Under the pieces are notes generated by a model. It was not told the origin of the DNA. It saw nothing but the letters and a program-made list of their open reading frames with translations, and did no database searches. 64,000 nucleotides of DNA from Fontimonas thermophila (GTDB lineage: Bacteria > Pseudomonadota > Gammaproteobacteria > Nevskiales > Nevskiaceae): positions 62,001 through 126,000 of the forward strand of contig NZ_FOOC01000001.1 of assembly GCF_900113085.1 (NCBI RefSeq), read 5' to 3'. The translations under genes and the position numbers were made by a program. Positions 1-62,900 of the stretch are shown one piece after another (positions within the stretch are counted from its first letter, which is position 1; each line of letters begins with the position of its first letter).

Positions 1-3000
1 ATTCGCGGCGCGCCTCGGGCGGATGCACGCGCGTGTCCTTGTGCGGGCCGGAGGCGCCGGTTTCGCGCTGGCTCCAGAGCGTCACCGCGCCGGTCTCGCG
101 ATCGAGCATGCGCATCACCGCATGGGTGATGTCGCCATTGATGATCTCCTCGCCCCAGACCCATTCGGGGTGCACGCCGAAGATCACCCAGTTCGCGAGC
201 GGTTTCGGCTGCGCTGGGTCGGAGACGTCGTCGAAGCGCACGACGCTGATCTGCTGCGTCGTGTAGTCATAGGGCTGGCCGGCAGGGGTGCCGTCCTGGC
301 CGACCTTGGGACCGTAGGTGTGCGAAGTCACGTCGTTGGAGTGCACGGTGATGCCACCCATGCGCACCGGCTTCATCGTCGCCACCGCCTCGATCAGCGC
401 ATCGCGCATCTGCGTGGCCATGTAGTCGTAGAAGCGCAGATCCATCACGTCCTGGAAGATCCAGGTGCCCCACCCCGGCGTCGAGTAAAACGGCGAGGTA
501 GGCTGTGCGAAGCCGTCATCGCGAGATTGGCCCCGGTCAAACGGGTGAGCGGCCCGGACTTGGCACCGGATGCGACCAGCGCATCGTGCTCCTCGAGCAA
601 CTGCGCGACACGGCGCTGCAGCAAGTCGTTGGGGAGATAAAGATCGTTGGCGACGATGCCGACGCGGCGGCCGTCCCCATCTTCGATGACCAGCGCGCGC
701 GTCGTGATACGTGTGCCGAGAATGTCGGCGCCGACTTTCTTGACCGAATGTCCGTAGGGATCGAATCCCGCGTTGCGCGCGATGCCGGCGCCGGTGGCGG
801 AGAACTGGCCGGCCGAGGCGCCCAGATGCCAGCTCGCATCGCGCACCGCGACCCCGGCACGCGAGGGTCCGGCCGGCACCGGCGGCGGTGGGGCGCCGGC
901 AAGCGCGGCGAGCTGCTCGCCGACCGCGCGTGACACCGTTTCAAGCCCGGCGCATAGCGCCTCGGGTGCACCCTGGGCGCGACAGCGCGCGACGACACCG
1001 GCGGCCGGGCTGGCGAGAAACTCTGCCGGCGACGGCGCGACGAGATCGGTGGCGGGATATTCCGCCGGCGCAGCCAGGCCGTCGAAGGCGGTCAGCAGCG
1101 CGCATTCAGGGTGCTGGTTGGCGATACCGAAGCCCAAGTCGGCGGCGGCATTCTGCAGTGTGCAGACCAGATGCCGGCCGATCGTCGGCGACACCATCAG
1201 CGTCCAGTGATCGGGGCAGGCACCGTCGACGTCCTGGCCCAGACCCTCAAGCAGCGCCTCCTCGGGACAGCCGCCGAGATAGAACGCGCCCTCGCGGAAG
1301 GTCTGCGCATACTGCTCCGGCGTGTACAGCATGTAGCCGAGGAAATCGTTGGCCGCACCGAGCAGGAAGTTTGCGCGCGCGCCGGTGATGCCGCCGCAAT
1401 CGGTGTCTGCTTCGATACCTTGCGGCAACGTCGCGCAGTCGCGCAGCGCATAGTGCAGTTGCGGGAAGGGCTCGCCCGGCATCGTGCCGATGAAGACATC
1501 GCCGATACGGATCGCCGACGCATATGTGCCGATGACCTGGCCCGTGACCCACGGCGGCGTGTCGGCGCGCTCGATCGACAGGCTGCCGCCCGCACCCGGC
1601 ACGTCGACGCGCGGAGCATAGTTGGCGAGCAGGATCGGCTGGGCGAGCGGCTCGCGCACGAACACCGTCTTCACGGCAACGGTGTCGCCGGCGACTTCGC
1701 TGCGCGCCGCGAACGCCGCATCGAGCAGGCTGCGCAGCCGCTGCCGGGCTTCGGCCTCGCGCGCGACGTTGTCGCCGGACTTGTTCCAGTCCATCGCGCC
1801 GAGCGCACCGACCAGGCCCAGGCCGACACCGCCGCTGGTGCGCTGCGCGATCTCCGCCGCCCAGGCGGTCCAGTCACCCGTAGCCGTGGTATTGGCGCTG
1901 GACAGCACGGTGGCGTGCGGCGCGTAGTTCATCAGCGTGGCGATCCGGCGCCCGCCGCGGTCCTCGGCGAACAGCACGCGGAACTCGCGGTCGGGGTCGT
2001 CGGTGGGCGGGCCCGCGTAAGACCCCGCGGTCGGCGGCCCCTGCACGCTGCCGACGTACAGCCGCGCCGGAACGCGCTGGACATAAGCCTCGACACCGGC
2101 CTGCACCGCGGCCTCGGCGAGAATCGCCATGTACAGCGGCGACACGCCGCCCCAGATGCCGATCGTGTCCGGCCCCTGGTGCGAATGATCCGAGGTCACG
2201 ATGATCTGATCCGCCGGCACCACGGCCCGGCCATAGCGCGCGTGCAGCCGCTGCGCGATGCGCTGACGGATGTCGTAAATGCCATTGGGCCCATTGCCGG
2301 CCTTGTAGGCGGCGAAGTACCCGACATTGGTGGTTTTGACGAGGATGACGGTATTGCCGTCGGCGGCGCTGGAGATCGCCACCGCGCCGACGACGAGCGG
2401 ATCGTGCTCGGCGAACGCCTTGCGCTCACAGAACACATCGTAGCCGCCGAGACAGACCGAGCCGGGTAATGGCAGGAACGAGGCCGGCCGCTCGGCGGCT
2501 CCCACCTCGAACGGCAGCGGCGGCAGAGGGCCGACTTCGACCTGCGCATGGCCCGCTATCCCGTCGAGCGTCGCGGTGATCTGCGTCGTGCCGACGGCGT
2601 GGCCGCTGACCTGCCCCGCCGTAACCGTGGCGATCGCCGGGTCGGCGCTGGTCCATACTGCCTGTGCAGTACGGTCGGTCTGGGTGCCGTCCGAGTACTG
2701 CGCGGTGGCGGCGAGCGCTGCCTGCGCGCCGACCACGAGCCGCAACGGCGACGGGGTGACGATCACGGCCTGCAGCACCGGCGGGGTCACCGTCAGCGTG
2801 GCCGTCGCCTGCCGTCCGGACGCGCTCGCGGTGATCTGTACGACACCCTCTTGGATGCCGGTCGCAAGCCCGGCATCGTCGATGGTCGCGCGCGCGGGCT
2901 CGCTGCTCGACCAGGTCACCCCGCGACGCAGATCTTCCTGAGTACCATCCGCATAGGTCGCGCGGGCGACGAATGCCTGGGTCAGGCCGACCGGCACCTC

Positions 3001-3405
3001 GGCGGTCGCCGGGTGGATCTCGAGCGCGGTCAGCGGCGGCGGCACGACGGTGAGAAAGGCCACTGCTTCCCGCTGCCGGTAACGCGCGCGGATCTCGGTC
3101 TGCCCGGCCGCGAGCGCGGTGGCGATCCCCTGCGCATCGATCCGGGCCACGCTGGGCACCGAGCTGGTCCAGACAACGGCTGATGCATCCACGCGCTCAC
3201 GCGTACCATTGGCGAGCACCGCGGTCAGCGTGTAGGCCTGGGTCTGGCCGCGTTCGATCTGGGCCTGGTCCGGGCTCAGCTCCAGGCGCTGCAACGCGCG
3301 GTCAGTGTCCGGCGAACGCGGCGCGCCGCCGCCACAGCCCGCGAGCAGGGCGAGGCTCGCGCACAGCAGACCGATCGCCCCCCAAGCGCACCTCATCACG
3401 GTCAT
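1..3405 (-). pseudogene. Giant lipoprotein with BIG2-like repeats and two ceramidase-like modules; frameshifted and partial
   Basis: This is a secreted lipoprotein gene that continues past the left edge. The start at 3405 has GGAGG seven bases upstream and opens a lipoprotein signal ending LAGC (Cys24). Residues about 40-290 hold three BIG2-like Ig repeats with the recurring W-S-S/A-D-P/V-A pattern. A first ceramidase-like module follows from about residue 293, with the metal-site-like HSHQGPD (His407, His409). A second module starts near residue 850. At plus position 500/501 one base appears to be missing: restoring a T turns the sequence after TASHS into H-T-S-P-F-Y-S-T-P-G-W, and that frame stays open to base 1. 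As given, translation stops at 445 after unrelated residues. It could be a true pseudogene, a phase-variable or slippage site, or an assembly error. The family assignment is from recalled motifs of neutral/alkaline ceramidases. The substrate is unknown. Confidence 0.72.
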
Positions 3406-3442
3406 CGGCATTCCTCCGCCCACCCCGGCGCACGCATCCGGC

Positions 3443-6400
3443 TCAAGGCACCGGCACCACCTGCGGCAGCAACGGGAAGCGCGCGACATTGGCATACGGT
3501 TCGGCCACGTTCTGCGGACGCGCCGTCGGCACCGCGAACTGCCACTGCTCGCCGTCGATCTCGGTCGAGGCCAGCGGCGTGAACAGGTTGTCGGAATCGT
3601 GGGTCGCAAAGAAGTGCAACCCGTGCGCGCCGTGTGCACCCTGCCGCCGCAGGCAGTCGGCAAAGGTGCGTCCGGAATGGTCGAGGGCGCGCCCGGCCGC
3701 AGCGTCGTAGGCCCTGGGAACGGCGCCGCCGTTCCAGGTGTAGCTCTCGCCGGGATAGGGCCGCGGCACCGGATCGTCGCCGGTACCGTCGTCGAGGCAG
3801 GCATCGTCGCGGTAATACGGCACGACCAGCGGATTGAGCAGCGAAGTCGCACCGCGGATCAGGAAGGTATAGACCAGCGAACCGGCGTCGCCCTTGCCGG
3901 ACACCTGCTCCCAGTTGTCGAACGCCAGCGGCAGGTTGAAGGTCGGATCGGCGGTATCGAAAAACGCCGGACAACGGCCGTTGACGCTCGGCGGAATCAC
4001 GCCGCTTTCCGCCGGACACATGCCGTTGACCGGCGCAAAGCCATCGACATTGCCGACATCGTCGTTGACGCCGTCGATCGGCACACCCTGCGGACGCAGC
4101 ACCGTGTAATAGCGTCCGCCGGGCACGCCGGCGGCGGCCTCGGCCGACGTCGGCACCATGGCGCTGCGGTTGTAATCCCAGGACGTGTACAGCCCGTCCG
4201 GCGGGATCGGGTGCACGCGCACGCGGTAACGGTACGTGACGGCATCGCGGTAGAAGGTCTCGGTCTTGGTGACGTTGGTCCCGGAGTCGGCGCCCCAGAC
4301 CTCGCGGATGCAGCGCACCGGCCCGCAGCGCTCGCCGAGCAGGGTGGAATTGCCTTCCCAGTTGACCTGCTCGTCCTCAAAACCGACCAGCGAGATCACC
4401 GAATCCGGTGACTGCTGGAAAGCGCGCCCCTTCCAGCGGTCGATCAGGTCCGGACGCCGGTCCCAATAATCCGGGCTGGCGCGCAATGCCGCACTGTCGG
4501 AAGGACCGCGCACGCGCAGGTCGCGCACCATCCAGCGGCCGGATGCGCTCCATCGGTAGGTGTCGGTGGTCACCGTCACGCCATCGCGCGGGAAGCGGTC
4601 GGTGGACGGGCAGAGATACTTGCCACTGGCGAAATCGAAGCCACAGGCGGCATCGTTGCCGTGATAGGCCTCGAGCGAGGCGACGCAGACCGTGCCGGCG
4701 AGATTCGGCCCATACCCAGTGTTGCTGGTGCCGAGCTTCTCCGGATCATCGTCACGGAACAAATGGCGGTCGATCCACGCATCGGCATCGGCATTGCGCA
4801 CGTAGCGCACATAGTGCGCACCCTTGAATGCCGAGCCGCCGTCCTTGAGAAAGAGATAGACGTAGCGCCGCGCCGTCGGGTCGAGCGGATCGACGAGCGC
4901 GATCTGCTGCCCGGGTGTGCTGCGCACGCCGGGCGGGCGCGCGCCGGCTGGCGCCAGCCCACCGGCATCGGCGGCCATGAAGACGATCTCGTCATCGGCA
5001 TCGAGCCCCGGTACCGGATCGGCCGTCGGCCAGGTCTTGCCGCTGTGCGTCTCGTAGGCGCGGGTGCAATCGCCCTCGGTCATCGCCCAGGATTCGGTGT
5101 CCCAGACGTAGCTGAGCTCGGGGTCGGTGCCGGAGTAGGTCGAAAAATCGCTGTTGCCATTGGCGAGGAAATACGGCATGCGCTCGTCGACCTGCACCGG
5201 GATTTCGGTCCATGCGCCGTCGCGCCAGGCAAAAGCGGCGATGTCGCCGACGGGCACGCCCGCGCGGACGAAACCGGCAAGCGGGTAGAGCAGGGTGCCG
5301 TTGTGCGCATCGCGCACCCCATCGCCGGTGACCGCCGCGCCGGACGGATAGGGATTGGCCACCCCCTGCGCAGGCGGCACTGCCCAGGTGGCGAGCAGTG
5401 CGCCGGGGACGACGACGGGTTCGACCTCGCGCCGCGCGGACGCCGCCTGCACCACCGTCTCCGGCACCCCCTGCGCGAGCCCGAGCAGGTCTTCCGGCGT
5501 CGTGCTCTGAGCCAGGCGCGCCAAGTCGGCGCCGAGCGTGGTCAGCGTGGTCTGCAACGCGGTCTGCGCCGTGCCGAGATCGCCGGCGAGCAGTGCATCG
5601 ATCAGAACATGTCCGTTGCTGCCCAGCCGCGCCAGCAGGCCGGTGAGTCCCTCGCCGGCGCCGACGACGCCGGTGCCGCCACTGCCGGCCGCCGGGGCGC
5701 CGGTGATGATCACCGCCGGACAACCGCCGGTGTCGCTGGCGAATTCGTCGATCGTCGCCGGATCGATCAGCCGCGCGGTGCTGTCGCCGGCAGTGGCCTG
5801 CGTGCGCAGCAGGAAATGCGACATCTGGCAGCGCGCCTGCACGTCCCGGCGCGGGCACTCGTGCGGATCGTCGCCGGCATCTGTCCCCGGCGGCACGTTG
5901 CCCACCGGCGGCGGCGCGGTGTGATAACCGGCGCAGCGCCGGTCCTGGCCGCCGTTCCACGGCTCGTCCCAGTACACCAGCGCCGAACCGCGCTGCTGCG
6001 CCGGATCGCGGTAGTCCAGCGGCACAAGCCCGAAGAATTCGTCGTTGTCCGGATGCCGCTCTGGACTCACCCGCCGGCGATCCACCGGCGCGCCGATCGT
6101 GCGCGCCATGACGTCCGCGCTCCACATCGTGACCTGGTGGTCGCCGAAGGCCGGGTGCAACAACACCGCGTTGTCGGGCCCCGCCAGGGCGCTGTTGTCG
6201 GTCAGGTGATGGGCATAGCCATTGTTCTCGGAACGATCCCACAGCATCTGGATCAGCCCGAAGTTGAGCACGCGGTCGAGGTCGTCCGGATACGACAGAT
6301 ACAGCGGGATCGAGTAGAGCGTGAAATCGGTACTGCGGGTCAGCAGCGTCGAGTAATTCATGCCGAGCACGCCGAGCACGCCGCGGTTGATGTCCTTGGA

Positions 6401-9400
6401 TGCGGCGACCAGAACGCCGCCGAGAATTCCGCCCTGGGAATTGCCGTGGTAGAACACCTCGCGCCGGTCGAACACCGGCTGGCCGTTGACCTGGAAAGCC
6501 GGATCGGCAGCCAAGCCATCCGGATGGACGAGCAGCCGCGCCAGATACATCTGGTTGAGCATGCCCTGCTGGGAGGCGTCCGGGATCACCGGGAAGTTGG
6601 ACAAGTCGACCAGCACGCTGGCGACATTGGGCAGATCGCCGCTGGCAAAGCCGAACCAATCGGCGGCGCAGGTCATCAGCCCGTAGCGATTGCCGAAGTC
6701 ACTGGCCTGCCCGTTGGCCTCGCCTTGCCCGCCAAGCAGGCCATGGCCATAGAGCGTGGGCCGCACGACATGGACCTGCGTGGCCGCGGCCATCGAGGAA
6801 GCCCCGCCGACCGCCGCGCGCGGAATATTGCAGGTGAAGGTGAAGCTGAGCTCGCCGGTCGGATCCGGCAGACCATCACCGTACGGGCTGCCCTGCGGAT
6901 CGGCCGGATTGAGCCGGTCCGCCGGATTGTAATAGAGCCGGTTCGGCGGCAGGCTCGCCGTCGAGGTCAGCCCGAGGGCATCGGCGAGATCGCCGACGCC
7001 GGGGATGCCGCAGTTGCCGCCGGTCAGCGCCTGACACTGATCGGCCAGCGACGACAGCCGATCGAGCAGTTCCTGCCGGGCATCGAGCGGAGAGGGGTCG
7101 GCCGGCACGACGAAACTCGGCACGCGGATCGTGCCGCGCACGCGGCGCACGGTGCTGCCGCTGGCGAAATCCTCGATCGAAGTGATCGAATAGCGCGGCG
7201 CACGGCCGGCCGGATAGTCGGCATCGCCCGGAGCCGATCCGCGCACGTCCCCGAGCGCGGCGAAGGCCCGGTCGCGCATCGCCTTGAGCCGTGCGACCTT
7301 GTTCTGGGCGCTGGCAGTGGTGAAGTCCCAGGCGAGGTAGAGGCTGGCATCGCGCGCGATGCCGGCCTTGTCCAAATCCGCGAACACCGGCTCGAGCGCC
7401 GCGCAGCGCTGGCGCAGCATTGCAAGCCCGGTGGGCAGGCGGTCGCGGCAGACCGTGAACGCCGCACCGGCGGGAATCGGCCGGTCGGCGTCATCGCGCA
7501 GATGGCGCAGCACGACCACGTAACGATGCCCTTCTTCGAAATTCTTCGCCGGCCGGATGATCAGCGCCGCGCGCTTGCCCTTGAGCGATGGCGTCGCTTG
7601 GTCGATGACACCGGGAATCAGTTTGCCGGCATTGAGGTCGATCTCGGCCCAGATCAAATGGCGGCGCGGCACGGCATAGGGCGCATCGACCGGCCCGGTA
7701 TCGAGCACGAGGATGGGCGCATCCGGATCGTCGTAGCGGCTCAGGTCGGTCAGCGACACCGCGCCCTTGACCGGCCCGTAGGGTTGCCCCTGCGCGTCTT
7801 TCTCGGTGCCCAGGTTGGGCACATAGACGGTGATCGGCTGGCCCGGCGAGTAACCGTCGTTGCGGTTCCACTCGCTGGGGTCGATCGGCTTGCCGGCGCT
7901 GTTGCGCGGCATTGCCAGCGGATGGAAGGCGATGCGCCGGCCGGTTCCGCCCTGATCGCGCGCCTGCGGGCTGCCCGGCGGCGCGGTGACCGTGAAATGG
8001 TCGTTCGGGAAAGGAAACAGACAGTGAGACGGGTCGAGCATGTCGCAGCCGGCGAGCGCCGCGAGCAGCGCATCACCGGCGAGGGCGGCATCGGCGGTCC
8101 CTGGTGTCGCCGACGGCAGCTGGGCGCAGATCGCATCGGGCAGACCCGCATCCCGGCAGGCGTCTGCCAGATCGCGCTGCGGATCGATCAGCGCGCAGAA
8201 AGATTCTGGCGCACCGGCCTCGCGGCAGCGCTGGGCATAAGAACGCTGGATGTAGTCGAGGCGCTGGGCGATGTCGGTGAGCAGGCAATCCGGCGACGCC
8301 GGATCGGCGCAGGCGCGCAGATACCCGGGCAGATATTCCTCAACCGGTGCCTCGAACAGCGGGATGTAACCCTGCATGCGCAGCAGCGGTGCGGTCAGCG
8401 GCCCGAGCGAGACGAACTCTTCGTAGCCGGTGAACGGCACGAGAAAACCGGCCTCGCCGGACGGATCGATGTAGCTGAATTCCTCCTCGGGGATGATGTA
8501 GCCGAAGGAGTTCTGTGTCAGCCCGAGCAGCATCACCGCGGCCCCGGGGTTGGCGTGCGCGGCGAGCCGGCGGATGTACTGACCGAACGTGTTCGTCGCC
8601 TCGCCGGGGATGGTCGCGATCTCCAGCCCGCCGGCGCCACCGATGGTGATGCGCGTGACCAGGGTCTCCGCGGTCGGCGTGATCTGGCCAAGCTCGGTGG
8701 ACACCGTGCCCAGCGCGGTGCCAAGACCCGGGATCGCACTCACCGGTGCCGGCGTGAAGTCGTAGTAGCGGTTGAAGGAACCGAGGGCGCCGGCGGCGAC
8801 AAAGGCCGGATTGGTGACCGGCAGCACGACGGTGACGTTGCGCACGGCCAGCGTCGGCGCCAGTGCCCGTTCCGCCTGCGCCGCGGCGAAGTCCGCCAGA
8901 TCGTGGCCACGGCAGCGCACGCGCTCGTAACTGTCCGGGTCGGACACCGTGCAGCGCCCGCCGGACGGCGAGGCATCCGCGATCGGGCCGTTGTAATAAA
9001 GCGCCACGCCGCCGTCCTGCTCGAGCCGCCGCATCGCGCCATAGATGTAATCGGCATGGGGCACGCGCGGGTCTTCACCGGTGCCGATGCTGGTCGGATG
9101 CGCGGCGTATTGCAGCACCTGGGCGATGATCGCGCCGGCTTTGTCGCGCACGACGAGCAGGGTCACGGCATCGTCGGCGTCCGCCGCCGGATCGACGCGC
9201 GGACGCCGGTAATTGTTGAACTCCGAGGTGCGGCCCACGCGCACGCTCAGGTCCGCCGGCTGCAGCGCGAGCAGCGCCGCGCGCGTCGCATCGGCGGCCT
9301 GCGCATAGAGCCGGTGGACGATCCAGTCCTGCGGCACGCCACCCCACAAGCCTTGCAAATCAGGGCCGGCATGGCTGTGGGTCTGGCCGAAGACGATGTG

Positions 9401-11065
9401 ATCGGCGGCAACGCAGGCCTGCACCGCACAGCTCGCCTGGACCAGCGCCTGGCGCAGCTCGCGCTGGATCACGTTACCGGCGCCGATCGCGTCGAGCATG
9501 ACGAACAGCACCCGCGTATCGCCGTTTTGCACGGCGAGCACGCGCACGAAGATTTCCTCGTCCTCGTCGCGGAAACGGCTGTGATGGACGCGCGCGCCGG
9601 CCGGCTCGGTGAGATTGTCCCCGAACTGCGCGAATGGATCGGGGAAGTTCTGCAGCGGATTGATGCCAAAACCGCCGAGATGGAATTTCTGCAGCTTGGA
9701 GCCGGCGAAAAAGCGCGGCTCGACGATACCGTCGATCTGCGCCTGTGTCGGCGTGACGCTGCGCTTGGCGGCGCCGGCACAGAACGTGCCGGGCGCGCAG
9801 GCCGGTGCCACCGCATTGCGCACGGTCACATCGACCACATCGCTGGCGCTCGCGCCCTGCGCATCGGTGACGGTCAGCCGGAAGCTCAAGACCGTGTCGG
9901 CATCGACTGCAGGCGCCACGAACGTGGGCGTGGCCGTCGCCGCGCCGTCGAGGGCCACATCCGGCCCGGCGGTCTGGCTCCAGGCATAGCTCAGCGCGCC
10001 GTTCTCCGGATCGAAGCTGCCGCGGCCGTCGAGGGTTACGCTCGCCCCCTCGTCGACGGTCTGGTCGGGCCCGGCATCGGCGACCGGCGGCTGGTTGGCC
10101 GGCGTCACCGGACGCACGGTCACGACCACTTCGTCCGGGGCCGACTGCGCGCCGGCGTCGTCGGTCACCCGCAGCGTAAAGCGCAGTGCGGTATCGGCGG
10201 TGACGTCCGGCGCGGTGAACTGCGGCTGCGCGGTGTCGGCACCGCTGAGGGTCACCGCCGGGCCGGCGCTCTGCATCCAGGCATAAGCGGTGATCCGTCC
10301 GTCCGGATCGGCACTGCCACGGCCATCGAGGGTGACGGTGGTCCCGGCATCGACGGTCTGGTCGGGTCCGGCATCGGCGATCGGCATCTGGTTCTGTCCG
10401 GGCGGGCTGACGACGACGTTGACGTCGTCCGCAGCGCGCGCACCGGCATCGTCGGTGACCGTCAGGCGGAACGCCAGCGTGGTGGGCGCGCTGACCGTCG
10501 GCGCGGTGAACGAGGCGCTGGGTTGATCGGCGCCGGTCAGGCTCACCGCCGGTCCGTCGAGCTGGGTCCAGGCATAGGCGACGATGGTGCCGTCGGCATC
10601 GCTCGCCGTGCCGGTGAGGGTGACCTGCGCGCCGGACACGACGCTCTGGTCGGCGCCGGCATCGACGGTCGGCGCGAGATTGTCGCCGGCGCGGTCGATC
10701 ACCGTTATCCGGACCTCGTCGGCGGCGCTTTTACCGGCGTCGTCGGTGACCTTCAGGCGGAACACCAGCTCGGTGTTGGCGTTGACCTGCGGCGTGAAAA
10801 ACCGCGCCTGCGCACTTCCCGCATCCTGCAGCACGACGGCGGGGCCGGCCTGCTGGGTCCAGGCATAGGCGGTGATCCGGCCGTCGGCATCGCGGCTGCC
10901 CCGGCCATCGAGGACGACCTCGACGCCCTCGCCGACGCTGCGGTCGGCACCGGCATCGGCGATCGGCGGCTGGTTGCCAGGGGATCCCCCCGATCCGCCG
11001 CCGCAGGCGGCGAGCAGCAGGGCCAGCGACAGCATCCCGGCCAGGCGGGTCGATACGGGCGGCAT
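3443..11065 (-). CDS. Giant modular lipoprotein: PKD-like domains, ceramidase-like module, GxSxG hydrolase-like module
   Basis: This predicted surface or secreted lipoprotein has 2540 residues. The start at 11065 is preceded by GGAGGAGAG and begins a signal peptide with lipobox LAAC (Cys21) and a Gly/Ser linker. Four PKD-like domains lie at about 33-122, 131-219, 228-317 and 327-416, each with ADAG, LDGRGS-type and YAW motifs. A neutral-ceramidase-like module begins near 431, with THSHAGPD (His563, His565) and a candidate nucleophile in DASP (Ser699). A second region starts near 1005 and carries GNSQGG (Ser1543), an alpha/beta-hydrolase nucleophile elbow. From about 1878 to the end is a module I do not recognise. 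The next gene follows after 37 bases on the same strand, so the two are probably cotranscribed. Likely roles are sphingolipid, ceramide or other amide/ester lipid breakdown, but activity is inference. The long open frames on the opposite strand here are codon-bias shadows. Confidence 0.85.
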   Translation of the reverse strand: MPPVSTRLAGMLSLALLLAACGGGSGGSPGNQPPIADAGADRSVGEGVEVVLDGRGSRDADGRITAYAWTQQAGPAVVLQDAGSAQARFFTPQVNANTELVFRLKVTDDAGKSAADEVRITVIDRAGDNLAPTVDAGADQSVVSGAQVTLTGTASDADGTIVAYAWTQLDGPAVSLTGADQPSASFTAPTVSAPTTLAFRLTVTDDAGARAADDVNVVVSPPGQNQMPIADAGPDQTVDAGTTVTLDGRGSADPDGRITAYAWMQSAGPAVTLSGADTAQPQFTAPDVTADTALRFTLRVTDDAGAQSAPDEVVVTVRPVTPANQPPVADAGPDQTVDEGASVTLDGRGSFDPENGALSYAWSQTAGPDVALDGAATATPTFVAPAVDADTVLSFRLTVTDAQGASASDVVDVTVRNAVAPACAPGTFCAGAAKRSVTPTQAQIDGIVEPRFFAGSKLQKFHLGGFGINPLQNFPDPFAQFGDNLTEPAGARVHHSRFRDEDEEIFVRVLAVQNGDTRVLFVMLDAIGAGNVIQRELRQALVQASCAVQACVAADHIVFGQTHSHAGPDLQGLWGGVPQDWIVHRLYAQAADATRAALLALQPADLSVRVGRTSEFNNYRRPRVDPAADADDAVTLLVVRDKAGAIIAQVLQYAAHPTSIGTGEDPRVPHADYIYGAMRRLEQDGGVALYYNGPIADASPSGGRCTVSDPDSYERVRCRGHDLADFAAAQAERALAPTLAVRNVTVVLPVTNPAFVAAGALGSFNRYYDFTPAPVSAIPGLGTALGTVSTELGQITPTAETLVTRITIGGAGGLEIATIPGEATNTFGQYIRRLAAHANPGAAVMLLGLTQNSFGYIIPEEEFSYIDPSGEAGFLVPFTGYEEFVSLGPLTAPLLRMQGYIPLFEAPVEEYLPGYLRACADPASPDCLLTDIAQRLDYIQRSYAQRCREAGAPESFCALIDPQRDLADACRDAGLPDAICAQLPSATPGTADAALAGDALLAALAGCDMLDPSHCLFPFPNDHFTVTAPPGSPQARDQGGTGRRIAFHPLAMPRNSAGKPIDPSEWNRNDGYSPGQPITVYVPNLGTEKDAQGQPYGPVKGAVSLTDLSRYDDPDAPILVLDTGPVDAPYAVPRRHLIWAEIDLNAGKLIPGVIDQATPSLKGKRAALIIRPAKNFEEGHRYVVVLRHLRDDADRPIPAGAAFTVCRDRLPTGLAMLRQRCAALEPVFADLDKAGIARDASLYLAWDFTTASAQNKVARLKAMRDRAFAALGDVRGSAPGDADYPAGRAPRYSITSIEDFASGSTVRRVRGTIRVPSFVVPADPSPLDARQELLDRLSSLADQCQALTGGNCGIPGVGDLADALGLTSTASLPPNRLYYNPADRLNPADPQGSPYGDGLPDPTGELSFTFTCNIPRAAVGGASSMAAATQVHVVRPTLYGHGLLGGQGEANGQASDFGNRYGLMTCAADWFGFASGDLPNVASVLVDLSNFPVIPDASQQGMLNQMYLARLLVHPDGLAADPAFQVNGQPVFDRREVFYHGNSQGGILGGVLVAASKDINRGVLGVLGMNYSTLLTRSTDFTLYSIPLYLSYPDDLDRVLNFGLIQMLWDRSENNGYAHHLTDNSALAGPDNAVLLHPAFGDHQVTMWSADVMARTIGAPVDRRRVSPERHPDNDEFFGLVPLDYRDPAQQRGSALVYWDEPWNGGQDRRCAGYHTAPPPVGNVPPGTDAGDDPHECPRRDVQARCQMSHFLLRTQATAGDSTARLIDPATIDEFASDTGGCPAVIITGAPAAGSGGTGVVGAGEGLTGLLARLGSNGHVLIDALLAGDLGTAQTALQTTLTTLGADLARLAQSTTPEDLLGLAQGVPETVVQAASARREVEPVVVPGALLATWAVPPAQGVANPYPSGAAVTGDGVRDAHNGTLLYPLAGFVRAGVPVGDIAAFAWRDGAWTEIPVQVDERMPYFLANGNSDFSTYSGTDPELSYVWDTESWAMTEGDCTRAYETHSGKTWPTADPVPGLDADDEIVFMAADAGGLAPAGARPPGVRSTPGQQIALVDPLDPTARRYVYLFLKDGGSAFKGAHYVRYVRNADADAWIDRHLFRDDDPEKLGTSNTGYGPNLAGTVCVASLEAYHGNDAACGFDFASGKYLCPSTDRFPRDGVTVTTDTYRWSASGRWMVRDLRVRGPSDSAALRASPDYWDRRPDLIDRWKGRAFQQSPDSVISLVGFEDEQVNWEGNSTLLGERCGPVRCIREVWGADSGTNVTKTETFYRDAVTYRYRVRVHPIPPDGLYTSWDYNRSAMVPTSAEAAAGVPGGRYYTVLRPQGVPIDGVNDDVGNVDGFAPVNGMCPAESGVIPPSVNGRCPAFFDTADPTFNLPLAFDNWEQVSGKGDAGSLVYTFLIRGATSLLNPLVVPYYRDDACLDDGTGDDPVPRPYPGESYTWNGGAVPRAYDAAAGRALDHSGRTFADCLRRQGAHGAHGLHFFATHDSDNLFTPLASTEIDGEQWQFAVPTARPQNVAEPYANVARFPLLPQVVPVP

Positions 11066-11096
11066 CACGGTTGTTCTCTCCTCCACCGGTCTTTTG

Positions 11097-11114
11097 GACC
11101 GACCGGTCATTCTA
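11097..11114 (-). promoter_or_regulatory. Putative -10 box with adjoining imperfect palindrome
   Basis: On the minus strand TAGAAT (11114-11109) resembles a sigma-70 -10 box. Directly downstream lies the imperfect palindrome read on the plus strand as GACCGACCGGTC (11097-11108), and a second ACCGGTC sits at 11085-11091, just before the ribosome binding site of the giant lipoprotein gene. Such GACCGA/CCGGTC half-sites resemble operators of TetR-type repressors, and the position would suit repression. I see no convincing -35 box and no regulator gene in the window. Confidence 0.4.
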
Positions 11115-11226
11115 GAAAATGCCCGGCAGCAATCCGGATAGTAAAAATAACGGTCCGCCGCCGGCGATCGGCGCGGCCGGCGCCGATCTTGCGGCGCAGC
11201 ATGAGCAGGCGTAAGGTGCGCGCCGC

Positions 11227-12603
11227 ATGAAAATCATCATTCTCGGGGCGGGCCAAGTCGGATCGACGCTGGCCGAGAATCTCGCCAGCGAACAGAACGA
11301 CGTCACCGTCGTCGATCTGCGCCCAGCCGCCCTCGAAGACCTCCAGGAACGTCTCGACATCCGCACGGTCGTGGGCCATGCGGCCTACCCGAGCACGTTG
11401 CGTCAGGCCGGCGCCGACGACGCCGACATGATCATCGCCGTCACCAGCAGCGACGAGACCAACATGCTGGCCTGCCAGATCGCTAACACACTGTTCAATA
11501 CGCCGACCAAGATCGCGCGTGTGCGGGCGACGGAATATCTCAAGGAAGACCGGCTGTTCGGCCCCGATGCCCTGCCGGTGGACATGCGCATCTCGCCGGA
11601 ACAGCTGGTCACCGACCTGATCCGCCGCCTGATCGAATATCCCGGCGCGCTGCAGGTCGTCGAATTCGCCGACGGCAAGGTGCGCCTGGTCGGCGTCAAG
11701 GCCTACTACGGCGGGCCGCTGGTGTCGCGCCAGCTGCGCGAGCTGCCGGCCCATCTGCCCGGCATTGATGCCCGCGTCGCGGCGATCTACCGCCGCGGCC
11801 GACCGATCATTCCAGAAGGTGATACCGTCATCGAGGCCGAAGACGAGGTGTTCTTCGTCGCCGCGCGCGATCACATCCCCAAGATCATCGCCGAGCTGCG
11901 CCGTCTGGACAAACCGGTCAAGCGCGTCATGCTCGCCGGCGGCGGCAATATCGGCCTGCGCCTCGCGCGGGCGCTGGAAACGAGCAAGATCCAGGTCAAG
12001 ATCATCGAGAAATCCAAAGAGCGCGCGCACCTGCTCTCCGAGCAGCTCGAGCACAGCATCGTGCTCATCGGCGACGCCGCCAACGAATCGCTGCTGCGCG
12101 AGGAAAACATCGAGGATGTGGACGTCTTCTGCGCGATCACCAACGACGACGAGGCCAACATCCTGTCGGCGATGCTGGCCAAGCGCCTGGGTGCGCGCAA
12201 GGCCATGTGCCTGATCAACCGCGTGTCGTATGTGGACCTGGTCGAGGGCGGCAGCATCGACATCGCGATCTCGCCGCAGAGCTCCACGGTCTCCGCCCTG
12301 CTCGCCCGCGTGCGCCGCGGCGACGTGGTCAAGGTCCACAGCCTGCGCCGCGGCGCCGCCGAAGCGATCGAGGCCGTCGCCCACGGCGACCGCCACAACT
12401 CCAAGGTGGTGGGCCGCCGCCTCGACGAAATCAAACTGCCGCCGGGCACGACGATCGGCGCGATCGTGCGCGGCGACGAGGTCATCATCGCGCATCACGA
12501 CACCGTGATCGAGGCGGAAGATCACGTGATCCTGTTCATCGTGGACAAAAAGCGCGTGAAAGACGTCGAAAAACTGTTCCAGGTCGGCCTCAGCTTCTTC
12601 TGA
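11227..12603 (+). CDS. trkA: Trk system potassium uptake protein TrkA
   Basis: TrkA is the cytoplasmic NAD-binding regulatory subunit of the Trk potassium importer. It binds the membrane channel TrkH and gates it. The 458-residue protein has the usual duplicated plan. The first RCK domain starts with a Rossmann motif (ILGAGQVG, residues 5-12) and the second repeats it around residue 237 (LAGGGNIG). Each is followed by a TrkA-C-like subdomain. The length matches the family. The stop codon overlaps the trkH start (TGATG), so the two subunits are translationally coupled. The gene diverges from the giant lipoprotein gene across about 160 bases. A weak AAGG lies upstream of the ATG. Confidence 0.96.
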
Positions 12604-14093
12604 TGCGCTCGCTTGCGTTACCAGCATCGCTGTTCGCCACCCACCGCTTCGCCGCGGTGCAGCGGGTCACCGGCGTTTTGCTGATGCTGTTCTCGATGAC
12701 GATGCTGCCACCGCTGCTGATCAGCTTGATCCGTGACGAGGGCGTGGCCTATGCCTTCGCCGAAGGTCTGGCTCTGACGCTGCTCACCGGTGTTGCCGTC
12801 TGGTGGCCGGTGCGGCATGCCGAAACCGAACTCAAGACACGCGACGGCTTTCTCGTCGTCGTGCTGTTCTGGGTGGTGCTGTCGACTTTCGGCGCCATTC
12901 CGTTCTACGTCACGCATACCGGCTGGCCGAGCTTCGTCGATGCGATGTTCGAATCGACCTCGGGGCTGACGACGACCGGCGCGACCGTGGCCACCGGGCT
13001 CGATACGATGCCGTGGGCAATCCTGTTCTACCGCGCGCAATTGCACTGGCTCGGCGGCATGGGCGTCATCGTGCTCGCCGTCGCCCTGCTGCCGATGCTC
13101 GGCATCGGTGGCATGCAGTTGTTCCGCGCGGAAACGCCGGGGCCGATGAAAGACGCCAAGCTGACACCGCGCATCGCCGGCACCGCGCGCGCGCTGTGGT
13201 TGGTGTACGTGATGATCACGCTGGTCTGTGCCTGGGTGTACTGGCTGGTCGGAATGCCGTTGTTCGACGCGATCTGCCATGCGATGTCGACGATCTCCAC
13301 CGGCGGCTTCGCCAACCACGACGCCAGCATCGGCCATTACCAGAGCCTGGCAATCGAAATCGCGGTGATGGTGTTCTTGCTCGTCGGCGCCATGAACTTC
13401 GCCCTACACTTCGTCGCCTGGCGCAGCCGCTCCCTGCTCGTCTATCTGCGCGATCCGGAGTTCCGCGCTTTTGCCGTGACGGTGCTCGTGCTCTCGGCTC
13501 TGGTATGTGTGCCGCTGTGGCTGTCCGGCACGTACGATTCGTTCGGCACCGCGCTGCGCATGGGCATGTTCCAACTGATCGCTTATGCGACGACGGCTGG
13601 ATTTGCGACCGCCGATCCGACACCATGGCCGGCCTACGTGCCGCTGCTGATCGTGTTGTCCGGATTCATGGTGGGCTGCGCGGGCTCGACCGCCGGCGGG
13701 GTCAAGATGACCCGCCTGGTGCTGTTCATGAAACAGGCCATGCGCGAAATGCAGCGTCTGCTGCACCCCAACGCGACCATCCCGCTCAAACTCGGCGGCA
13801 AAACCGTGCCCGACGACATCGTGTATGCCGTCGGCGGATTCTTCTCGGTGTATGTCGGCCTGACCATTTTGCTGACTTTCGTCATGATCGGCACCGGACT
13901 CGATCCGGTCACTGCGTTCTCGGCCGTCGCCGCCTGCATCAACAACGTAGGTCCGGGGCTAGGTTCGGTCAATGCGACAATGGCGGGCGTCAGCGTCTTC
14001 GGCAAATGGGTGCTGATCGTCACGATGATCATCGGCCGCCTGGAGATCTTCACCTTCCTGATCGTGTTCACCCCCGGTTTCTGGCGCCGGTGA
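12603..14093 (+). CDS. trkH: Trk system potassium transporter, membrane subunit TrkH
   Basis: TrkH is the integral-membrane, ion-conducting subunit of the Trk potassium uptake system. The start at 12603 overlaps the trkA stop by one base and gives 496 residues, close to the E. coli TrkH length. The frame is open further upstream, but only this start leaves trkA intact and begins at the first membrane region. The four pore-loop signatures are visible in order: LTTTGAT, STGGF, TAGF and NNVGPG. They correspond to the four selectivity-filter repeats of the SKT superfamily. Several hydrophobic helices separate them. It works with the TrkA encoded immediately upstream. Confidence 0.95.
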
Positions 14094-56669: not shown

Positions 56670-59600
56670 ATGAGATTCATCGAGCTGTGCACACGCAGGC
56701 CGGTTGCGATCAGCATGCTGACCTTCGCGGTGTTGCTGTTCGGACTGGTTTCGCAGTCGCGCCTTGCGCTGACACTGCTGCCGGATCTGTCGTATCCGAC
56801 GCTGACCATCCGCACCGAACTGCCGGGCGGCGCGCCCGAAGAAGTCGAGACCCTGCTGTCCAAACCGATCGAGGAGGCTCTCGGCATCGTCCGTAACGTG
56901 CGCCAGGTGCGCTCGGTATCGCTCGCCGAACGCAGCGACGTGACGCTGGAGTTCAACTGGGGCACGCCGATGGATTTCGCGGTCCTCGACGTGCGCGAGA
57001 AGCTCGATGCACTGGAATTGCCCCGCGAATCGGGCCGCCCGGTCGTGCTGCGCTTCGACCCGAGCCAGGAACCGATCATGCGCTACGGGCTTGCACTCAA
57101 GTCGGCCGACCCAACCGTGGCCGATGAAGCGACGCTCAAGCGGCTGCGCCGGATCGCCGAGGACCTCGTGCAAAAACCGATGGAGGGCGTCGACGGCGTC
57201 GCCGCGGTCAAGATCGCCGGTGGACTCGAAGACGAGGTGCAGGTGCTGGTCGATATGACCCGCCTCGCCCAATTCGGCCTGACGCTCGAACAGGTCGCCG
57301 GGCGGCTCGCCGCCGAGAACGCCAACATCTCCGGCGGCCGGATCGAACAGGGCACGTCCAGCTACCTGGTGCGCACGCTCAACCAGTTCGGCTCGCTCGA
57401 AGAGATGCGCACCACCATTGTCGCGACGCGCAGTGACCGCCCGATCTATCTCGACGACGTCGCCGAAATCCGGCAGGGCGCCAAACGGCGTGAAGCGATC
57501 ATCCGCATCGATGGCGGAGAAGCCGTCGAGATCTCGATGTACAAGGAGGGCGATGCCAACACGGTCGCCGTCGCCCAACGCATCAAGGAGCGTGTCGAAC
57601 GACTCGTCAAGGAGTTGCCGCCGGATCTTGCGATACAACCGCTCTACGACCAGTCGCTGTTCATCCAGCACGCCATCGATGAGGTCAAGAGCGCCGCCAT
57701 CGAGGGGGGCGTACTCGCCATCCTCATTCTCTACCTGTTCCTGCGCAACGCCTGGACCACGGCGATCGTCGCGGTCGCGATTCCGATCTCGGTGATCGCG
57801 ACCTTCAACGTCATGTACGGTGCGGGGCTGTCGCTGAACATCATGTCGCTGGGCGGCATCGCGCTGGCGATCGGCATGCTCGTCGATGACGCCATCGTCG
57901 TCCTCGAAAACATCCATCGCCAGCAGGAACTGGGGCTGCCGCCGCACGCGGCTGCGGTCACCGGCACGGCGCAGGTGGCCGGTGCCGTCACCGCATCGAC
58001 GCTGACGACGGTGGCCGTGTTCTTTCCGATGGTGTTCGTGCAAGGCATCGCCGGGCAGTTGTTCGCCGACCAGGCGCTGGTGGTCAGCGGCGCGCTGATG
58101 TTCTCGCTGCTGGTGGCCCTGACCCTGATTCCGATGCTGGCCGCGCGCGCCAGCGGACGGGCGATGTCACCGCCGGTGCGCGCGGATACGCCCACACCAG
58201 TGCCGCTGCGCAGCGGCCTGGCGCGGATACGCCACGGCACGCTGGAGATCCTGCCGTCGCTGCTGCTGTGGCCGTTCGTGCAACTGGCACGCCTTGGCAG
58301 CCTCATTCTCGGCGTGGCGCTGTCCCCGCTGGCGGCACAGTGGCAACGCGCGTTCGGGCGGTTCGAACAGCGCTATCTGCATCTGCTCGAATGGTCGCTC
58401 GCCCACCGCGGCGCGGTGCTCGCGCTCGCCGGCCTGCTATTTGCGCTGTCGCTGGCCCTGCTGCCGCGCATCGGCGTCGAATTGATCCCGCCGTTCAACC
58501 AGGGAGAGTTTCGCGCCGAGCTGCAACTGCCACCGGGCACGCCGCTGGAACACACCGACGCCGTGCTCGCCGACGTCTCGCGCACGCTGCGCGACGACTC
58601 CGATCTGCATGGCTGGGTAGCCACGTACTACACCGTCGCCGGCACCGGCAACCGTCTCGATGCCAATCCCGAAACCGGCGGCGAGAACTTCGGCACGATC
58701 AACATCGTGCTCGGGCCGACCGCTTTTGCACGCGAAACCGAGGTGATCGCGCGCCTCTCGCAACGGCTGGACCGCGTGCCCGGGGCAAGCTATCGCTATT
58801 CGCGGCCGACGTTGTTCACGCTCAAGACGCCGCTGGAGATCGAATTCGCGGGCTACGACCTCGCGGAGCTGGAGCGTGCGTCCGAAGCCTTGCGCACACG
58901 CCTGCTCGCCTCCGACCGCTTCACCGAGGTCGGCAGCACCCGCGCGCCCGGGCATCCCGAGATCCAGGTGCGATTCGACCAGGAACGCGCCGCCCGCCTG
59001 GGACTCGATACCGCGGTGCTCGCCGAACGCGTCGCGCATCTGGTGCACGGCCGCGTCGCCACGCGCTACCGCATCGGCGACCGCGAAATCGACGTGCTCG
59101 TGCGTGGCGGTGAGGATACGCGCGCCAGCCTCGAAGCGCTGCGCAACATGAGCGTGAATCCGGAATCACCGCAACCGGTGCGCCTGTCGTCGATCGCCGA
59201 GATACGGCTCGCAACCGGGCCCAGCGAGATCCGTCGCGTCGACCAGCAACGCGTGATCGTGGTCTCGGCCAACATCGCCCACGGCGACCTGGGCGAGGCG
59301 ATATCGGAAATCGAATCGATGCTCGAAGCCTTGCCGTTGCCGGAAGGCCTGACCACCCGCATCGCCGGCCAGAGCGAGGAAATGAAGCTGTCGTTCCGCT
59401 CGCTGACGATGGCGCTCGCGCTCGCGATTTTTCTCGTCTACCTGGTGATGGCGGCGCAGTTCGAGTCGCTGCTGCACCCTTTCGTCATTCTGTTCACGAT
59501 CCCACTCGCGGCGATCGGCGCGATTGTGTCGCTGTACGTCACCGGCTCGGTGATCAACGTCGTTGCGCTGATCGGCATGATCGTGCTCGCCGGCATCGTC

Positions 59601-59939
59601 GTGAAAAACGGTATCGTCCTCATCGATTTGGTCAACCAACTGCGCGCGCAGGGTCACGCAGTTCGTGCGGCCATCCTCGACGCCGGCCGCTCACGCCTGC
59701 GGCCGATCCTGATGACCACATTGACGACGGTGCTCGGCCTGCTGCCGATGGCAATCGGCACCGGCGAAGGTGCCGAAGTGCGCCAGCCGATGGCGATCAC
59801 CGTGATCGGCGGGCTCACGGTTTCGACGCTGCTGACGCTGGTCGTCATTCCCGTGGTGTATGCGCTGGTCGTGCGCGAGCCAGGCGCAGATCCCGCAATC
59901 CCTGATCGCGCAACAGACGCGCACGGAAGCGGGCAATGA
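56670..59939 (+). CDS. RND efflux permease 1 (proton-relay residues intact)
   Basis: This is an inner-membrane proton-driven exporter of the RND (AcrB-like) superfamily, 1089 residues with 12 helices and two large periplasmic loops. The first helix follows TRRPVAISML, as is typical. The transmembrane-4 relay pair is intact as VDDAIVV (Asp406, Asp407), and the transmembrane-10 Lys is present as VVKNGIV (Lys979), matching AcrB Asp407/Asp408/Lys940. A roughly 60-residue insert with Pro/Arg content follows helix 6. The stop overlaps the next RND gene by four bases. It probably forms a heterotrimer with it. Confidence 0.92.
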   Translation: MRFIELCTRRPVAISMLTFAVLLFGLVSQSRLALTLLPDLSYPTLTIRTELPGGAPEEVETLLSKPIEEALGIVRNVRQVRSVSLAERSDVTLEFNWGTPMDFAVLDVREKLDALELPRESGRPVVLRFDPSQEPIMRYGLALKSADPTVADEATLKRLRRIAEDLVQKPMEGVDGVAAVKIAGGLEDEVQVLVDMTRLAQFGLTLEQVAGRLAAENANISGGRIEQGTSSYLVRTLNQFGSLEEMRTTIVATRSDRPIYLDDVAEIRQGAKRREAIIRIDGGEAVEISMYKEGDANTVAVAQRIKERVERLVKELPPDLAIQPLYDQSLFIQHAIDEVKSAAIEGGVLAILILYLFLRNAWTTAIVAVAIPISVIATFNVMYGAGLSLNIMSLGGIALAIGMLVDDAIVVLENIHRQQELGLPPHAAAVTGTAQVAGAVTASTLTTVAVFFPMVFVQGIAGQLFADQALVVSGALMFSLLVALTLIPMLAARASGRAMSPPVRADTPTPVPLRSGLARIRHGTLEILPSLLLWPFVQLARLGSLILGVALSPLAAQWQRAFGRFEQRYLHLLEWSLAHRGAVLALAGLLFALSLALLPRIGVELIPPFNQGEFRAELQLPPGTPLEHTDAVLADVSRTLRDDSDLHGWVATYYTVAGTGNRLDANPETGGENFGTINIVLGPTAFARETEVIARLSQRLDRVPGASYRYSRPTLFTLKTPLEIEFAGYDLAELERASEALRTRLLASDRFTEVGSTRAPGHPEIQVRFDQERAARLGLDTAVLAERVAHLVHGRVATRYRIGDREIDVLVRGGEDTRASLEALRNMSVNPESPQPVRLSSIAEIRLATGPSEIRRVDQQRVIVVSANIAHGDLGEAISEIESMLEALPLPEGLTTRIAGQSEEMKLSFRSLTMALALAIFLVYLVMAAQFESLLHPFVILFTIPLAAIGAIVSLYVTGSVINVVALIGMIVLAGIVVKNGIVLIDLVNQLRAQGHAVRAAILDAGRSRLRPILMTTLTTVLGLLPMAIGTGEGAEVRQPMAITVIGGLTVSTLLTLVVIPVVYALVVREPGADPAIPDRATDAHGSGQ

Positions 59940-62900
59940 GCCTCACCCAACTGTCGCTGAGGCGGCCGGTCACGGTCGTGATGTTCTTCGTGTGTCTGTC
60001 CGTGATCGGCTTGATCGCCGGCCAGCGCCTGCCGCTCGAATTCCTCCCGGACATCGAGTTTCCCGGCCTGCTCGTCGAAATCCCGTACCGCAACTCCACG
60101 CCCGAGGAGGTGGAACGGCGGATCACGCGTCCGGTCGAGGAGGCGCTCGCCACCCTGTCCGGCATCGAGAACATGCACTCGGAGTCTTCCGACGCCGGCG
60201 CGCAGATTTTCATCCGCTTCGATTGGGGTCAGGACCTGGCGATCAAGGGGGTCGAGGCCCGCGACAAGATCGACGCCATCCGCAACAGCCTGCCGCCCGA
60301 CATCGAGCGGATCCAGATCCGCAAATTCGAAGCAGGCAGCATCCCGGTGCTGACCTTGCGTGTATCCGCCGAGCGCGACCTCTCCGGCGCCTACGACATG
60401 CTCGAACGCAATCTCAAGCGCCGCATCGAACGCCTACCCGGTGTCGCGCGCGTCGAACTCTACGGCGTCGAGCCCAAGGAGGTGCGCATCGAACTCGCCG
60501 CAAGCCGCATCGCCGCCCACGGCATCGACGTGCGCCAGCTCGCAGAAACGCTGCGGCGGGCGAATTTCGCGCAGACCGCCGGTGATCTCATCGAGAACGA
60601 CACGCGCTGGTTCGTCAGACTCGAAGGGCGTTTGCCGACACTGGCGCACATCCGCGACCTGGTCATCGACCGCAGCGGTCTGCGCCTGGGCGATATCGCC
60701 GAGGTGACCTACGCCGATCCGGTGCGTACGTACGGCCGCCATCTCGACGGCCGTTACGCGATCGGCATCAATGTATTCAAAGAGACCGGTGCCAACATGG
60801 TCGATGTCGCCGATCGCGCGCTCGCCGAGATCGACGCGGTGCGGGCACTACCGGAAATGGCCGGCATCACCCTCTACGTGATGGACAACACCGCACAGAG
60901 CGTGCGCGACTCGCTCAACGATCTGACCGAGGCAGGTCTCGTCGGCGCATTGCTGTCGATTGCGATCCTCTACCTGTTCCTGCGCGACTGGCGCAGCACG
61001 CTCATCGTCTCCTGCGCGGTGCCATTGTCGCTGGTGATCACGCTCGCCGCGATGTATTTCCTCGACATCAGCTTGAACATCCTCAGCCTGATGGGCTTGA
61101 TGCTGTCGGTCGGGATGCTGGTCGACAATGCGGTGGTCGTCACCGAGTCGATCTTCAAGGCGCGCGGCGAATGCCAAGACGCAAAAGCGGCGACCATAAC
61201 CGGTGTCGATGGCGTCGCGCTCGCCGTGTCGCTGGGCACTTTGACCACGGCGATCGTCTTCCTGCCCAACGTTTTTGGCGTACAGAACGAGATCACGGTT
61301 TATCTCACGCACGTCGCCATCACGATCTGCGTCGCGCTCGGCGCATCGCTGCTGATCGCGCTGACGCTGATCCCACAGCTGACGACGCGCATTCCGATCG
61401 CAACGCAGACGCGCGCGGCCTGGATGGAACATCTCGCGGCGCGCTATGTGCGCGTGCTCGAATGGACCTTGCGCCATCCCGGCAAGACCGGCGTATTCAT
61501 CCTCGGCGTGCTCGCCAGCGTCGCCGTGCCGGCGAGCCTGGTCAAAACGGACATGTTCCCGCAGGACAGCGGCAAACGCCTGGTGCTGCGCTACAACCTC
61601 AGCGGCGTCTACCGGCTCGACAAGGTCGAGGAGGCGGTGAACACGATCGAGGGCTACCTGCTCGCGAACAAGGCGCGCTTCGAAATCGAATCGGTCTATT
61701 CATATTTCGATCTGAGCCGCGCCGATACCAGCATCATCCTGCTCCCCAAGGAACAACGCCGGCAGACCACGCGCCAGATCAAGGATGCGATCCGCAGCGA
61801 GCTGCCCAAGATCGCGATCGGCGAGCCGAGCTTCGAGGAAAACCGCCAAGGCTCGGGCGAGCGTCTGTCGATACAAATTCTCGGTGAATCCAGCGATCGT
61901 CTGGGTGAGATCGCGCGCGAGATGGAACGCGTCGTACGCAGCGTGCCCGGCTTGACCGACGTCCGGCTGAGAGCGAAGGCGCAGGACTGGGAAGTGCGTA
62001 TCCGCATCGATCGTGACAAGGCGCGTCTCTATGGGCTATCGAGCCAGCATGTCGCCGACGTCGTCGCCGCCGCGATGCGCGGCGTGCCGCTGCGCCCGTA
62101 CCGCACGTCGACCGGGGAGGTGGATCTGCGTCTGGAACTGCGCCGCGCCGACCGGCTGGATCTCGACGCTCTGCGCGCCTTGCCGGTGATCACGCCCGGC
62201 GGCGAGCGTGTCGCGCTCGCCGCAGTCGCGCAGCTGTCGGTCAGCGCGGCTCCGGGAACGATCGAGCGCGAAGACCGGCATACCGCGTTGACCATCGAAT
62301 TCGGTACCGTCGATGGAGTCACTGCCGAAGAGGCTCAGCAACGCGTCGAAGCGACGCTTTCCGGACTGCAGCTGCCGCCGGGCTACAGTTGGCGCTACGG
62401 CAAAGCCTTCGACGAGGAGCAGGAGAGCATGCGGACCATGGTCCAGAACATGCTGCTCGCGGCAGCCTGCATCTACATCGTCATGGCCGCACTGTTCGAA
62501 TCGATCCTCGCACCCAGCGCGATCATCACCGGCATCCTGTTCTCGTACGTCGGCGTCTATTGGTTTTTCCTCGTCACCGGCACCGACTTCTCGTTCATGG
62601 CCCTGATCGGCATGCTGGTGCTGATGGGCATCGTCGTCAACAACGGCATCGTCCTCGTCGATCACGTGAATCAGTTGCGCGCAGCCGGCCAGGAGCGCCG
62701 CCAGGCACTGATCCAAGGCTCGCGCGACCGCCTGCGGCCGATTCTGATGACGGCGGCGACGACGGTGCTGGGCATGGTGCCGCTGGCGCTGGGCGATGCA
62801 ACGGTCGGCGGCGAAGGGCCGGCCTATTACCCGATGGCGCGCGCGATCATCGGCGGCCTGGTCTTTGCCACCTTCGTCTCGCTGCTCGTACTGCCGACGA

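Follow-up and report, generated by a model that had tools for sequence, protein, structure and literature searches.

We asked what a single lipoprotein of 2540 residues might do with several enzyme-like modules assembled in one chain. Its gene lies in a 64,000-nucleotide stretch of DNA from Fontimonas thermophila, which belongs with the Nevskiales; this stretch is called the window below. On the minus strand, the frame runs open from the ATG at 11065 to the stop at 3443, 2540 codons with no interruption, as the initial annotation had claimed for the run from lipobox to stop, without giving the strand. An upstream in-frame ATG at 11110 would give 2555 residues. Residues are numbered here as in P0001, which begins 15 codons before the ATG at 11065 and thus adds 15 to the numbers used in that annotation. 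The minus frame has GC contents of.70/.52/.85 at the three codon positions, and its protein aligns over its length with full-length homologues at 59-72% identity; this pattern and this alignment identify the minus strand as the coding one. A plus-strand open reading frame of 2189 residues is spurious, since codon pattern and homology both favour the minus strand, and a chimeric assembly was ruled out because the same fusion is found in independent genomes. The gene and its N-terminal part comprise the following features:

Positions 3443-11065, minus strand: whole coding sequence of the 2540-residue lipoprotein (P0001 residues 16-2555), from the open frame, the coding codon pattern and homologues.
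Positions 11078-11084, minus strand: Shine-Dalgarno-like GGAGGAG in the sequence, 12 nt upstream of the ATG at 11065, a good ribosome-binding site.
Positions 11003-11014, minus strand: lipobox LAAC in the sequence (residues 33-36), following a hydrophobic stretch and ending in Cys36, then Gly.
Positions 9809-10972, minus strand: four PKD domains, residues 47-434, from Pfam K319L-like_PKD.

The N-terminal signal and the lipobox cysteine are those of a bacterial lipoprotein. According to the +2 rule of Lol sorting, a glycine after the lipobox cysteine suits the outer membrane, which would be the destination of P0001, and the chain is probably tethered to the cell exterior. The four PKD-like repeats reported earlier are borne out by the Pfam K319L-like_PKD model, which matches in four stretches with E=2.4e-76 (252 bits, for a cut-off of 27).

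Beyond the spacers, the chain divides into three modules, CER, HYD and CTD, whose limits (435-1005, 1006-1805 and 1809-2555) were set by homology boundaries. The motifs quoted in the initial annotation are all present (THSHAGPD at 577, DASP at 712 and GNSQGG at 1556), and they are not chance occurrences because they are kept in relatives. The first module is ceramidase-like:

Positions 8096-9808, minus strand: CER, residues 435-1005, from Pfam Ceramidase_alk and profile comparison with 4wgk and 2zws.
Positions 9377-9379, minus strand: His578 (HxH), presumed Zn ligand, invariant in 18/18 sequences and aligned to THTH of 4wgk.
Positions 9098-9100, minus strand: His671 (HPTS), presumed Zn ligand, invariant in 18/18 and aligned to HPVS of 4wgk.
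Positions 8969-8971, minus strand: Ser714 (DASP), kept in 17/18, putatively equivalent to the serine in the GDVSP motif of neutral ceramidases, on motif similarity judged by eye.
Positions 8600-8602, minus strand: Glu837 (PGE), presumed Zn ligand, invariant in 18/18 and aligned to PGE of 4wgk in a segment weak alone.
Positions 8498-8500, minus strand: Tyr871 (GYI), presumed Zn ligand or catalytic tyrosine, invariant in 18/18 and aligned to HYITT of 4wgk in a segment weak alone.

A search with PF04734 (Ceramidase_alk), proposed earlier as a check, fell below the cut-off of 32.1 bits for the window protein, with 18.8 bits for the whole chain and 25.8 bits (E=5.2e-6) for isolated CER, and it found no matches across the window's own genome because CER is too divergent for that model. 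The family as a whole fared better: 16 of 18 CER relatives match the model (E up to 0.1, best 5.6e-11), and a profile built from the 18 relatives matched, in the PDB, 4wgk (human neutral ceramidase, E=1.8e-7) and 2zws (from Pseudomonas, E=0.002), with almost no others. The alignment to 4wgk places THSH on THTH, HPTS on HPVS, PGE on PGE and GYI on the HYI of HYITT, although the second segment (PGE, GYI) is weak by itself. The two histidines, the glutamate and the tyrosine of a zinc site thus have candidates at the motif positions, H578, H671, E837 and Y871, the last two in that weaker half; their assignment presumes the ligand identities that we take to hold in known neutral ceramidases. The serine motif reads NGPIADASP, with the serine present in 17/18, and resembles by eye the NLGDVSP motif, whose serine lies at the base of the ASAH2 pocket; in that enzyme His196, Arg257, Tyr579 and Tyr591 were proposed as catalytic (PMC6952831). 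CER shares with CerN (2zws) and ASAH2 (4wgk) a profile match over the N-terminal half and the HxH, HP(T/V)S, PGE and GY/HY motifs. It differs from them in scoring under the Pfam cut-off in the window protein, in showing no match to the C-terminal domain that neutral ceramidases usually have, and in being one module of a giant lipoprotein rather than a secreted enzyme of about 650 residues. The matches, sub-threshold in the window protein itself, make a convincing case across the family that CER would be a divergent neutral-ceramidase catalytic domain. Our literature search on Nevskiales ceramidases and on multicatalytic ceramidase chains returned nothing relevant.

The second module carries the features below:

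Positions 5696-8095, minus strand: HYD, residues 1006-1805, predicted alpha/beta-hydrolase fold, from AlphaFold, Foldseek and VIA-align.
Positions 6437-6439, minus strand: Ser1558, in the nucleophile elbow GNSQGG, conserved in 18/18.
Positions 6140-6142, minus strand: Asp1657 (GDHQV), candidate triad acid, conserved in 18/18.
Positions 5861-5863, minus strand: His1750 (DPH), candidate triad histidine, conserved in 18/18 and placed in a low-pLDDT region.

HYD found no fitting model in Pfam and no matches in a profile search of the PDB. Its AlphaFold model, of moderate confidence (pLDDT 68, pTM 0.77), aligns in VIA-align with the CE7 acetyl esterase 5fdf_A (Z 17.1, 289 residues aligned, 3.9 A), CE15 esterases coming just behind, and Foldseek agrees on the alpha/beta-hydrolase fold. 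The best fold matches are therefore acetyl xylan and glucuronoyl esterases (Z 16-17), to which no sequence similarity was found; the fold gives the superfamily only. These models support HYD as an alpha/beta hydrolase. The hydrolase assignment made earlier stands as a predicted fold and lacks a family model; together with the CER family profile matches, it upholds the claim of two different hydrolase-type centres in one chain. Like HYD, VolA/Pla-1 (TIGR03502, PF12262) is a lipoprotein alpha/beta hydrolase. Among the HYD relatives, one reaches E=0.0036 with TIGR03502 and one 0.0063 with PF12262 (Lipase_bact_N), both far under cut-off; the window HYD does not match TIGR03502, for which one relative scores 15.5 bits against a required 383.9. 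HYD differs from VolA/Pla-1 in being joined to other enzymes and in lacking a dedicated model. Such weak matches of single relatives suggest a possible kinship with these surface lipoprotein phospholipases, of which VolA provides a precedent as a surface-exposed lysophospholipase lipoprotein (PMC5500766).

The third module had been noticed only in part, as a stretch (1878-2540) listed for structure prediction; that it is a module separate from the hydrolase was missed:

Positions 3446-5686, minus strand: CTD, residues 1809-2555, predicted mutarotase-like supersandwich, from AlphaFold, VIA-align and conservation.

Searches of Pfam and NCBIfam with CTD gave no fitting model, and the PDB profile search gave chance matches to peptide deformylase only. 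The AlphaFold model (pLDDT 82, pTM 0.87) is best matched by the galactose mutarotase-like supersandwich of aldose epimerases, the C-terminal part of GH38 and PL26 lyases. VIA-align superposes 247 of the 747 residues on 1snz (Z 13.8, 3.7 A), and the match to PL26 lyases (Z 12.3, 316 aligned, 4.1 A) covers more of CTD. The identity to these domains is about 10%, with extra N-terminal helices and insertions in CTD and no shared catalytic residues identified. CTD is the most conserved of the three modules: 44/44 sequences share without any change, among other stretches, RWKGRAFQ, GFEDEQVNWE, WGADSGTN, RVHPIP and DDGTGD. This conservation suggests catalysis in preference to simple binding, even if a purely binding CTD could be envisaged, and the predicted fold suggests a possible role on sugars. 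CTD alone is common in Frankiales, other actinobacteria and Deltaproteobacteria bins, and it also occurs in a Chloroflexi bin. Distant relatives (about 28% identity) are found in Ruminiclostridium and Hydrogenedentes (L103:8843-11305, L104, L105, L113); the CTD family is therefore much wider.

On balance, we somewhat favour the view that P0001 is a multi-enzyme outer-membrane lipoprotein that dismantles, at the cell surface, lipids that are N-acylated and probably glycosylated too. The lipid-anchored N-terminus and the four PKD spacers would hold CER, HYD and CTD in one chain. Acting as a zinc amidase like the neutral ceramidases, CER would hydrolyse the N-acyl linkage in a lipid that resembles ceramide, while HYD would cleave acyl esters and CTD would either bind the sugar part or process it; what is released would then enter beta-oxidation. 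The neutral ceramidase CerN of P. aeruginosa, controlled by the sphingosine-sensing AraC-family regulator SphR (PMC5150637, PMC3900636), offers by analogy a working precedent for ceramidase-based lipid use. The initial annotation had already spoken of a cell-surface lipid-degrading machine; this idea gains support from the co-occurrence of the modules, from neighbouring genes and from the fused and split relatives, while the machine is still something that we infer.

A ceramidase-like module and an alpha/beta hydrolase are ordinary parts; unusual are their assembly, as was noted earlier, the modular family to which P0001 leads, and the conserved CTD. P0001 is not unique, since other lipoproteins of its family likewise combine several hydrolases from shuffled modules. 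All three modules are joined in one chain in Nevskiales, Salinisphaerales, Algiphilus, an Ectothiorhodospiraceae bin, Moraxellaceae bins and Perlucidibaca. In the congener Sinimarinibacterium sp. CAU 1509 (G003), CER and CTD are two adjacent genes beside the same divergent trkA, and HYD is on another contig. Other genomes hold CER-CTD chains, PKD-CTD proteins and giant chains, among them a Stagnimonas chain of 6247 residues (PKD, CER, HYD, S15-like hydrolase, HYD, ceramidase-like, CTD, ceramidase-like) and a Spongiibacteraceae frame of at least 6804 residues, these lengths being those of open frames, some of which are ended by contig or locus limits. Frames of 6,200-6,800 codons with several hydrolase modules (CER, HYD, S15-like, CTD) were seen at L061:8315-27058, L096:6563-26975 and L123. 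A CER tree of 30 tips requires 5 changes of fusion state, and well-supported branches force at least 4 of them. A clearer ceramidase-like protein, of the P0003 type (Pfam E=5.4e-12), adjoins CER or CTD genes in congeners (L037:7489-10506, L053:16441-19395), and no such protein was found after P0001 in the window.

Does this shuffling reflect joint action or mere co-anchoring? P0001 might be a general surface scavenger, its independent lipid, peptide and ester hydrolases serving broad digestion of cell debris and their fusion only anchoring and expressing them together. Such a scavenger would account for the longer relatives, which add a Peptidase_S15-like alpha/beta hydrolase, a further copy of HYD and more ceramidase-like modules, and for the varying module order. 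Against it, genomes with CTD fall almost strictly among those with CER, and these among those with HYD, a nesting that speaks for a joint function, and we consider this explanation unlikely, if the best of the alternatives. Among 85 genomes of the order, CER is present in 28, HYD in 33 and CTD in 17. HYD accompanies CER in 28/28 genomes (hypergeometric 1e-17, uncorrected for relatedness), and the CTD genomes hold HYD in 17/17 and CER in 16/17, counts likewise uncorrected. Among 184 other genomes sampled from the class, the window's own genome excluded, CER occurs in 3 and HYD in 4, and all 3 CER genomes, which belong to different families, have HYD (p=4e-6, relatedness uncorrected). CER and HYD lie on different contigs in two of these three genomes, and modules at separate loci are nevertheless co-inherited (e.g. 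G039, G097 and G043). Joint action of the modules would agree with this distribution.

The genes around the modules may bear on the substrate. Next to P0001 lies a second lipoprotein gene:

Positions 445-3411, minus strand: P0002, lipoprotein with Big_2 repeats and two ceramidase-like modules, starting 31 bp after the P0001 stop, with its frame broken near 500.

The break falls inside an HxH-type motif of the second ceramidase-like module, and P0002 continues to the left of the window. A programmed frameshift was ruled out because the gene of the congener G003 is one intact frame of 1910 residues; the break is either a sequencing error or a recent mutation. On the other side, trkA-trkH potassium uptake genes (11227-12603 and 12207-14093, plus strand) are divergent from the lipoprotein gene, and their place beside the CER locus is conserved in several genera. 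Farther away in the window, two consecutive RND (AcrB-type) transporter genes overlap by 4 bases (56670-63028, plus strand). In 7 genomes of two families, GH92 mannosidases are encoded no farther than about 8 kb from CER, and an AraC-family regulator adjoins CER in 4 congeners. GH92 was not found in the window's genome, and the AraC gene of the relatives is not at the window's locus, the nearest AraC-family match (35% identity) being elsewhere in the genome; we therefore rejected both as fixed partners, and the glycolipid reading rests on relatives. CTD genes neighbour thiolases in actinobacterial bins and, in Perlucidibaca, lie downstream of two acyl-CoA dehydrogenase genes. One Deltaproteobacteria bin has a penicillin-amidase frame that overlaps its CTD frame, both being on one strand (L092:6480-9812 and 9017-12634); the two may belong to a fused gene whose frame is broken, or to an operon.

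Alternatively, P0001 could face the periplasm and remodel or recycle the cell's own envelope lipids (N-acyl lipids, acyl chains of lipoproteins) rather than external ones. The lipobox signals the outer membrane and not the leaflet, and no lipid transporter is fused or adjacent in the window, as this alternative would have it. The use of nutrients is a better fit than housekeeping, however, for the PKD/Big-type spacers, for the patchy presence among close relatives (CER in 28/85) and for the association with GH92 and AraC genes, and we regard a periplasmic function as improbable. It seems very improbable that any of the modules has lost its catalytic function and acts in binding or as a structural element instead: the equivalent of Ser714 is an alanine in one relative and the first ceramidase-like module of P0002 (CERb1) appears by eye to be without the serine motif, but the presumed metal ligands and the GNSQGG, Asp and His candidates are all invariant in 18/18.

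We return to an enzyme that would take apart complex lipids at the cell surface. We tentatively propose, as a bolder step that may well prove too large, that P0001 stands for a class of hydrolase megaenzymes not described before, each of them a single chain of about 2,100 to over 6,800 residues that is anchored at the surface and built from shuffled ceramidase-like, esterase-like, S15-like and mutarotase-like modules. Such a chain would act on glycosylated N-acyl lipids as a "lipid-digesting cellulosome on one chain", in which CTD would be a new enzyme family. CTD is a good target in the search for new enzymes, with dozens of residues invariant across proteobacteria, actinobacteria and deltaproteobacterial bins and no Pfam or NCBIfam model. 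Little is known of how bacteria break down environmental sphingolipids, and with the modules fused in some relatives and split in others, their link in function can be tested directly. Polysaccharides are known to be broken down by single chains that carry several enzymes; a chain of the P0001 type, if our proposal is true, would be the counterpart for complex lipids.
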